Source: Bacteroidota bacterium
GTDB taxonomy: Bacteria; Bacteroidota; Ignavibacteria; Ignavibacteriales; Melioribacteraceae
Length of the DNA: 64,000 nucleotides
Direction: 5' to 3'
Assembly: GCA_018829205.1 (NCBI GenBank)
Contig: JAHJUE010000030.1
Coordinates: 1 to 64,000, forward strand
Shown: positions 1,605 through 3,263 of the stretch, piece by piece
Layout of the letters: each line of letters starts with the position of its first letter
Position numbering within the stretch: the stretch's first letter is position 1
The notes under the pieces: generated by a model
The model's input: only the letters and a program-made list of their open reading frames with translations
Database searches by the model: none
What the model was told of the DNA's origin: nothing
Position numbers and translations under genes: made by a program

Positions 1605-3263
1605 TTATACTTCTTTGCCGCCCAGTTCTGTTATTATTGATTTAATCAGAGGATGTTCTTCTTCGAATGGTTTTTTCCCGGCGTCATCATATATAGTTTG
1701 TTTTGGAATGGATGATTCAGAATTTGAATTATGAATTTGTTTACCGCCATTTTTTACTGAATTGGTAAAAACCAACTCATATTTGTTTTTTAATATTTCA
1801 ATTATGGCTTGATTAATATATTGTAAGTGATTCTTAATAATTGCTTCGTCTTCGGGATGCTCTAATTCAAGCATAATTTTATTTTCAATAACTTCAATTA
1901 GTTTTGTATGGGCCATTAATCCTAATGAAAATTTTTCCTCAATTATTTTATCTATTAATATTTCCCATAATCTTTTAAACTCTTTACCGGTATTTAAATT
2001 CTTTTTATCAACAACAATGATTGGATCAGAATTAATTGAAGATTTTACAGAATTATTTTCACTTTTTGGGGAATCTGAAATGTCAGGTTTCAGGATAGGC
2101 TTTTTTTTTTCTTGATCGTCAGTTAATTGCACATTTCCGGAATTTAGTTTTGATAAAATTTCCGAAATCGTTGAAGTTTTTTCCAGTCCAATTAAATGAG
2201 TTAAAGAAATCTCTATTGTTAATCTTTGATTTCTTGTGTTTTTAATTTCGTACTGCAGCTTGTTCAAGAACGATAAAATTCTTAAAATATCACCTTCTGA
2301 GAATTCGTTTTTATAATTATTATATTTTTCTTTGTAAACTTCCGCTGTTTCAATTAATTTTAAATTGCTGCTTACAATTACGGTCATAATATTTCTAAAA
2401 TGTTCAATTAAACCGTCAACAAAATCTATAAAATTCCAGCCGTTTTCATAAATCCTTTTTGAAACAATAAATGCGTCTTCGTACTTTTTATTTATTACCG
2501 CGTCGGATATAATAAAATAAACTTCTTCGTCAATTAAATTCAGCATCTTTGTAATTACATCGGACTCGACATTATTTCCGCAAAAAGAAATTACCTGATC
2601 GAACAAACTTTGAGCGTCGCGTAATGCGCCGTCGGCTTTTTTAGCAATTAAGGTTAATGATTTGTCGTCGATTTTGATATTCTCTGCCTCAGCAATTTTA
2701 TGCAGAAGTGATTTGATTTCACCCAATTCAATTCTTCTAAAATCAAATCTTTGACACCTGGAAATTATAGTAAGGGGCACTTTATGAATATCAGTTGTAG
2801 CAAAAATAAAAATTGTATGCTCAGGCGGTTCTTCCAAAGTTTTCAGCAATGCATTAAAAGATTCCGTTGTAAGCATATGAACTTCATCAATTATATAAAC
2901 CTTGTATTCACCTTTTGTAGGAGCATATTTTACTGATTCTCTTAAAGTTCTTATTTCTTCAATTCTTCTGTTGGAGGCTCCGTCTATTTCAATTACGTCT
3001 AATGACTGCTGATTGTTAAAAAGCTTGCACATTTCGCATTCGCCGCATGGTTCGCCGTTAATAGAATTCATGCAGTTTAAACTTTTCGCAAGAATTCTTG
3101 CCGTTGTTGTTTTTCCAACTCCGCGTGGACCTGCGAATATATATGAATGCGCAATCCGGTTGTTTACAATCGCGTTCTTTAAAGTTTGTGTTATATGCGA
3201 TTGACCAACAACTTCATCAAATATTTTTGGGCGCCATTTTCTTGCGGTTACTAAAAAACTCAT
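1605..3263 (-). CDS. dnaX: DNA polymerase III subunits gamma and tau
   Basis: A 552-residue clamp-loader ATPase that loads the sliding clamp and bridges polymerases at the fork. Walker A is GPRGVGKT (residues 45-52), a four-cysteine zinc module lies at about 64-79 (CMNSINGEPCGECEMC), Walker B/DEAD-like is IIDEVHML, sensor 1 is FIFATTD, and residue 170 lies in the ISRCQRF arginine-finger segment. Residues beyond about 385 are low-complexity and then the tau-specific region. An A10-G run at codons 385-388 followed by a stem-loop looks like a frameshift site that would yield a gamma form of about 393 residues (separate entry). Transcribed after lon and msrC with 38 bases between msrC and dnaX, so probably one operon. 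Confidence 0.96.
   Translation of the reverse strand: MSFLVTARKWRPKIFDEVVGQSHITQTLKNAIVNNRIAHSYIFAGPRGVGKTTTARILAKSLNCMNSINGEPCGECEMCKLFNNQQSLDVIEIDGASNRRIEEIRTLRESVKYAPTKGEYKVYIIDEVHMLTTESFNALLKTLEEPPEHTIFIFATTDIHKVPLTIISRCQRFDFRRIELGEIKSLLHKIAEAENIKIDDKSLTLIAKKADGALRDAQSLFDQVISFCGNNVESDVITKMLNLIDEEVYFIISDAVINKKYEDAFIVSKRIYENGWNFIDFVDGLIEHFRNIMTVIVSSNLKLIETAEVYKEKYNNYKNEFSEGDILRILSFLNKLQYEIKNTRNQRLTIEISLTHLIGLEKTSTISEILSKLNSGNVQLTDDQEKKKPILKPDISDSPKSENNSVKSSINSDPIIVVDKKNLNTGKEFKRLWEILIDKIIEEKFSLGLMAHTKLIEVIENKIMLELEHPEDEAIIKNHLQYINQAIIEILKNKYELVFTNSVKNGGKQIHNSNSESSIPKQTIYDDAGKKPFEEEHPLIKSIITELGGKEV
2075..2111 (-). promoter_or_regulatory. Candidate programmed -1 frameshift (or slippage) site in dnaX
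   Basis: On the coding strand, codons 385-388 read GAA AAA AAA AAG: ten A residues (2110-2101) then G. Six bases later CTGAAA (2093-2088) and TTTCAG (2080-2075) form a 6-bp stem with a 7-base loop. A -1 shift at A AAA AAG continues as A-Y-P-E-T then TGA; a +1 shift also stops after three or four codons. The arrangement resembles E. coli dnaX (A AAA AAG plus stem-loop) and the A9 slippage site of Thermus dnaX. No strong upstream Shine-Dalgarno stimulator was seen. Confidence 0.6.

Follow-up and report, generated by a model that had tools for sequence, protein, structure and literature searches.

A probable transcriptional slippage site in the dnaX gene of a Melioribacteraceae bacterium and the distribution of comparable A-runs among its relatives

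Transcriptional slippage on a run of nine A's is established for the dnaX gene of Thermus thermophilus, as described in PMC1088944 and also in PMC5009743; the latter, a review, gives the two lysine tRNAs of Thermus as a possible reason for slippage by the polymerase. A second group was brought together by Antonov et al. (2013), who listed (PMC3711429) 17 two-ORF dnaX genes with poly-A runs from 12 genera, nine of them with 10 A's, and predicted transcriptional realignment for this cluster. The three Chlorobi that they named carry 9, 8 and 7 A's, and the Chlorobium gene with 7 A's is said to have stimulatory signals like those of E. coli (PMC5009743). The E. coli dnaX, which served us as a single-gene yardstick, has a run of six A's, a 50-nt fold of -19.1 kcal/mol and a +1 frame that stays open for 12 codons. 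Slippage that yields a shorter product was regarded as hard to judge from sequence in a 2005 survey (PMC1088944). In the open-access literature, as far as its available text goes, we found nothing on a tau-in-frame dnaX with such a run in the present phylum, and nothing on stops kept in both alternative frames of dnaX or on run lengths that fall into two states.

The window analysed here is the whole stretch of 64,000 nucleotides taken from contig JAHJUE010000030.1 (GCA_018829205.1) of a Bacteroidota bacterium of the family Melioribacteraceae. The zero-frame product of its dnaX gene (Table 1) is tau, encoded in one ORF, and the ATPase, lid and domain III residues are predicted to be common to tau and gamma. 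Codons 385-388 read GAA AAA AAA AAG, which is the A10-G run reported in the preliminary description; the nearby stops in both alternative frames and the 6-bp stem with a 7-base loop six bases downstream are also present as it had them. As in Thermus, there is a single tau ORF with a run of at least nine A's past the ATPase/collar part, stops lie nearby in both non-zero frames, and the genome has two lysine tRNAs. The window gene differs from that of Thermus in having 10 A's and not 9, in belonging to a different phylum and in the position of the run, codon 385 of 552 (70%) against "seven-eighths" of the coding sequence in Thermus (PMC1088944). With the two-ORF genes of Antonov et al. it shares an A-run between the gamma and tau parts, but in those genes gamma is the zero-frame product and tau is reached by a slip, whereas here tau is in frame. 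The likeness to E. coli extends to the gene itself, to the same two products (predicted in the window) and to an A_AAA_AAG heptamer in frame; unlike E. coli, with its A6, stable fold and open +1 frame, the window gene has an A10, a stem of -4.0 kcal/mol, both frames closed and two tRNA-Lys.

Table 1. Features of the dnaX gene and its slippage site in the window (positions of the whole stretch).
Feature	Positions	Strand	Basis
dnaX, DNA polymerase III subunit gamma/tau, 552 aa	1605..3263	-	NCBIfam PRK05563 and TIGR02397 (dnaX_nterm), both above cut-off; Pfam
ATPase, lid, domain III (residues 21-372)	2148..3203	-	PF13177, PF22608, PF12169 (Pfam)
A10 slippery run, gene nt 1154-1163	2101..2110	-	sequence; runs of relatives
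TGA ending +1 A transcripts, giving 393 aa gamma (predicted)	2083..2085	-	read by eye
TGA ending -1 A transcripts, giving 390 aa gamma (predicted)	2090..2092	-	read by eye
tau-specific region, codons 389-552	1608..2099	-	homologous tails in relatives
6-bp stem CTGAAA / 7-base loop / TTTCAG	2075..2093	-	6 bases past the AAG codon

We interpret the A10 run as a programmed site of transcriptional slippage like that in dnaX of Thermus thermophilus, a reading to which we give a probability of about 0.78. RNA polymerase would stutter on the ten A's and produce mRNAs with 9, 10, 11 or more of them; those with 10 (or 10 ± 3n) would be translated into the 552-residue tau, and all others would run into a stop within a few codons, so that gamma would be 390-393 residues long and end shortly after domain III. 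We infer that the polymerase and not the ribosome is slipping and that both products exist here, and the same holds for their ratio. The site is real and, from sequence comparison, very probably programmed.

The genes compared came from 58 genomes (that of the window and 57 relatives), from 80 loci of a named collection and from even draws over the phylum (128 genomes) and the class (100 genomes), which overlap. From 319 genes (318 loci, L004-L321, plus the window gene) we kept 306, made up of 284 in the phylum group and 22 comparison genes outside it; loci of the named collection were assigned to one or the other according to how their records are titled, and for L076, among the 22, the title gives no phylum. 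Left out were five duplicates (L142, L165, L176, L222, and L302) and eight partial genes (L049, L053, L063, L131, L136, L137, L199, and L321), among which the site has A9 in L137 and A10 in L199. The matching genomes G145, G199 (cut at contig ends), G228 and G237 stand outside the sample. A full dnaX match was not found in G001, G011, G019 or G030 (weak matches only), nor a match at 1e-60 in G220 or G242; as some of those assemblies are fragmented, these missing matches may be assembly gaps, and our guess is that some are contig breaks at rRNA genes. The window itself opens with plus-strand rRNA genes, a 23S represented by its 3' end and a 5S, which occupy positions 1-622 and lie about 1 kb from where dnaX ends. 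The dnaX of G057 is split over two contig ends (G057:C35 and G057:C61; L131 and L137) whose query ranges overlap, which probably reflects the assembly; its C-terminal piece has an A9 run. Sampling bias through the search pattern TDDQEKKK was considered and rejected, given that among the 284 genes only the window gene has that peptide.

The length of the longest A-run between codons 346 and 430 falls into two states among the 284 phylum-group genes. It amounts to 2-7 A's in 96 genes (2 in 8 genes, 3 in 21, 4 in 31, 5 in 15, 6 in 13, and 7 in 8), to 8 in none and to 9-11 in 188 (9 in 65, 10 in 112, and 11 in 11), with none longer, so that 177 of the 188 runs have 9 or 10 A's. Among the 96 genes without a run of at least nine, the longest stretch is of at most five A's in 75 and of six or seven in 21. 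The 2005 survey uses conserved run length among homologues as a criterion for slippage (PMC1088944), and in this set 188 of 284 genes keep 9-11 A's against the 96 that have no such run. The lower limit of nine seen in our 284 genes is not absolute, since two Chlorobium dnaX genes have 8 and 7 A's (PMC3711429). Runs of at least nine were found in none of the 284 genes within codons 1-345; beyond codon 430 there is a run of 9 or 10 in five genes and of 8 in 23. The 22 comparison genes never exceed eight A's in codons 346-430.

Of the same-family genes 23 of 33 have the run, as do 14 of 22 same-order genes and 32 of 79 others of the class; the figures are 76 of 94 for other genes of the phylum and 42 of 55 for the in-group part of the named collection. 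The run is missing in the remaining same-family (10), same-order (8) and same-class (47) genes, and with so many genes lacking it the run must be dispensable. Relatives in which the run is broken had been proposed in the preliminary description as evidence against the site, and they do exist in 10 of the 33 same-family genes, although mostly as outright absence and not as the single synonymous breaks that had been envisaged. We inspected 31 run-lacking loci, partial ones included, sequence by sequence. In L118, one of the run-lacking relatives, the same linker contains a T7 run at codon 382, probably by chance. The tau protein is also much shortened in some relatives, to 462 aa in L106, 447 aa in L120 and 416-486 aa in four of the genes of family f36 (L275, L276, and L317-L320); L106 and all six f36 genes have an A10, and L120 has no run of at least nine.

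All three phases are used by the 188 runs, which start in phase 0, 1 and 2 in 27, 83 and 78 genes, respectively. The GC content of run-bearing dnaX genes reaches 66%, and 10 of the 29 genes at or above 60% GC carry the run; in the 52 carriers with at least 50% GC, a median of 39% of the lysines elsewhere in the gene are encoded by AAA. Retention of a lysine tract for the sake of the protein was rejected as an explanation: three consecutive lysines stand at the site in 129 of the 188 run-bearing genes and in just one of the 96 run-lacking ones.

The main test concerned the frames in which the protein is not encoded. For the 140 tau-in-frame genes, codons downstream of the run were redrawn synonymously with the protein fixed, and we counted how often a stop appeared within eight codons. 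Both other frames are closed in 119 of the 140 genes against 39.3 expected (z 17.4; as the genes are related, this and the following z values overstate independence and are a guide, not a probability). Taken singly, the -1 frame is closed in 138 genes against 92.7 expected, and the +1 frame in 120 against 60.1. Closure of both frames holds across the three GC bands (z 8.7, 11.1, and 11.5), in each of the three phases (z 5.8, 11.2, and 12.3) and in the order of the window itself (33 of 38 genes against 14.5 expected, z 7.2). The controls were flat, with absolute z values of at most 1.8, whether the test was placed at codon 365, 380, 395 or 410 of run-lacking genes or shifted 40 or 60 codons downstream in run-bearing ones. 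These comparisons show that, in the relatives that carry it, selection maintains the run, the limits on its length and the stops in both other frames.

In 48 of the 188 run-bearing genes, the window gene not among them, the zero frame ends as gamma just past the run (we define these gamma-in-frame genes by a zero frame shorter than 410 codons that ends at most 60 codons from the run, and count every other run-bearing gene, including the short-tailed L275 and L276, as tau-in-frame). A long open tail follows in the -1 frame in 47 of the 48, and in the +1 frame in one (L254), and a tau tail is recognisable in another frame, with E at most 1e-5 against the tails of other genes, in 46, the exceptions being L317 and L318. 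The single +1 case may be a one-base homopolymer error or a true exception. A single extra A would almost always open the frame of tau, which fits insertions as the commoner error, but this frame is also the -1 ribosomal one.

Both layouts, tau-in-frame and that of the Antonov genes, occur side by side within genera among the relatives: the genera g75 and g80 (family f17) and g84 each contain both registers. One f17 gene (L222) is identical over its first 300 residues to L022, a gene whose record is titled Chlorobiaceae. There are also near relatives that differ by one A with a flip of the register, L195 (A9) against L196 (A10), and L223 (A9) against L219 and L225 (A10). On a FastTree phylogeny of the first 345 residues, the minimum number of changes is 37 for presence of the run (80 on average after shuffling), 22 for register (43) and 43 for phase (78); errors in the tree would inflate all three counts. 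Homopolymer errors in assemblies could add a few flips; they cannot explain register groups that differ in phase at equal run length.

Ribosomal slippage into the -1 frame needs no more than seven bases, is usually aided by a stem and does not require that the +1 frame be closed. We consider it unlikely that programmed frameshifting of this E. coli type, on A_AAA_AAG and aided by the downstream stem, explains the window site, even if it is the alternative that survives best. The heptamer is in frame in the window gene and is followed by CCT, and the position of tau in the -1 frame in nearly all gamma-in-frame genes is the main fact on its side. The stem stands at a suitable distance, and its stability rank within the gene (0.73) is like that of the E. 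coli stem (0.74). Its folding energy, however, has a z of -1.38 in a 41-base fold and of +0.50 in a 92-base fold. The comparison of stems in relatives that the preliminary description had proposed brought no enrichment to light: in 183 of the 188 genes, the mean stability of downstream stems does not exceed that of other stretches of those genes (mean rank 0.461 against 0.5 by chance, Wilcoxon p 0.166), in a test that is blunt, given that even the known E. coli stem reaches only 0.74. The 27 tau-in-frame genes of phase 0 lean slightly towards stems (rank 0.57). With its weak energy and this lack of enrichment under a blunt test, the stem-loop is not supported as a stimulator and is probably incidental.

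Shine-Dalgarno-like motifs upstream of the run are slightly enriched in relatives (35 of 188, or 0.19, against 0.12 at control positions); in the window gene, AGGA, GGAG, GAGG and AGGG were not found within 20 bases upstream of the run. A sole tRNA-Lys for both AAA and AAG is a mark of E. coli-type sites, and the window genome instead has anticodons CTT (L339) and TTT (L345), among the 30 of 41 tRNA matches examined. Where seven bases would be enough, the relatives hold 9-11 A's in all phases, and their +1 frame is closed too. The preliminary description had left either mechanism possible, and the balance now shifts towards RNA polymerase, which fits best because at least nine A's (9-11 in practice) are kept in every phase, the window stem is weak and stems are not enriched, both frames including +1 are closed, and two tRNA-Lys are present. 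The other part of that description, a programmed site with a gamma-length product, is strongly backed by the relatives through the run, the frame closure and the gamma-in-frame genes.

Sliding of ribosomes on poly-A, in which the ribosome and not the polymerase would lose the frame, would likewise be independent of phase and would need both frames closed, and it has been demonstrated for E. coli ribosomes (PMC4363877). In that work, three-lysine inserts in an E. coli cell-free system gave little sliding with A9 or A10 and much with A11, so that it is robust at a length reached by few of the runs considered here, nearly all of them having 9 or 10 A's. Sliding would also give no defined product ratio, and we regard it as improbable.

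Slightly less probable still is that the run is an accident of a lysine-rich linker in an AT-rich genome and has no function. A run of at least nine in codons 346-430 appears in 72.5% of synonymous shuffles of the window dnaX (400 draws, P 0.725) and is unsurprising by itself, given the lysines and codon usage of this gene, and many relatives have no run. The window gene alone cannot tell a slip site from an accident, and it is the comparison of relatives that decides. Whole-gene synonymous shuffling across the relatives gives an expected 62.9 genes with the run where 188 have it, and only 26 are individually at P <=0.05; as the shuffle retains the AAA codons of the run, it was too weak to be the main test, and the frame-closure test was used in its place. 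What stands against chance are the two-state lengths, the GC-rich genes with a run, the closure of both frames with flat controls and the 46 gamma-in-frame genes whose tau needs a slip. The run could be a relic in the window species alone.

The counts over the whole genome of the window (4.59 Mb, both strands) are 206 exact A9 runs, 19 exact A10 runs and two longer ones. Among the 18 other A10 runs, three (L326, L328, and L331) lie well inside a sense ORF of at least 290 aa, five are in sense but near the end or the start of an ORF or in a short one, two overlap ORFs in antisense only, and the remaining eight fall outside any ORF of at least 80 aa. These counts and placements make an A10 within a gene a rare feature in this genome. 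The mid-gene A10 of L326 (about 1-1838; G000:C7 near 83438) stands directly before the stretch LPENYKLNQNYPNPFNP. We take the ORF to be glycoside-hydrolase-like, and LPENYKLNQNYPNPFNP presumably resembles a type IX secretion sorting domain; slippage at this run would yield a product without the LPENYKLNQNYPNPFNP tail.

Phase variation at the DNA level, with the length of the A-run shifting in replication and turning tau on or off in subpopulations, is very improbable, for although homopolymer runs do mutate and near relatives stand one A apart with a register flip, the lengths are confined to 9-11 and stops are retained in both other frames, and genes for clamp-loader subunits are not typical targets of such switching.

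Returning to transcriptional slippage, the window dnaX would join the already known Thermus type, and the part for specialists is the phylum-wide pattern together with the interchange of registers. We lean, with less assurance than for the window site itself, towards polymerase slippage on A9-A11 being the standard route to tau and gamma in much of the Bacteroidota-Chlorobi-Ignavibacteria, with a nearly neutral register and a tau that depends on slippage in dozens of species. Since a slipping polymerase would feed all frames, the register of tau may be nearly neutral, as the flips (at least 22 on the tree, also within genera) suggest; these same flips would mean that in dozens of species every cell relies on errors of the polymerase for its tau. 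On this reading, the selection on both alternative frames marks the slippage as transcriptional.

Little is known of how common it is among bacteria to make two DnaX proteins. The both-frame closure test sets apart the runs that are kept from those that are incidental, and it is an aid in distinguishing slippage during transcription from slippage on the ribosome. Annotators who meet a dnaX of 360-400 aa in this phylum, with an out-of-frame tail close by, are probably looking at an intact gene. For each species, closure also yields a prediction of whether gamma is made by slippage, and the relatives that lack the run may make tau only.
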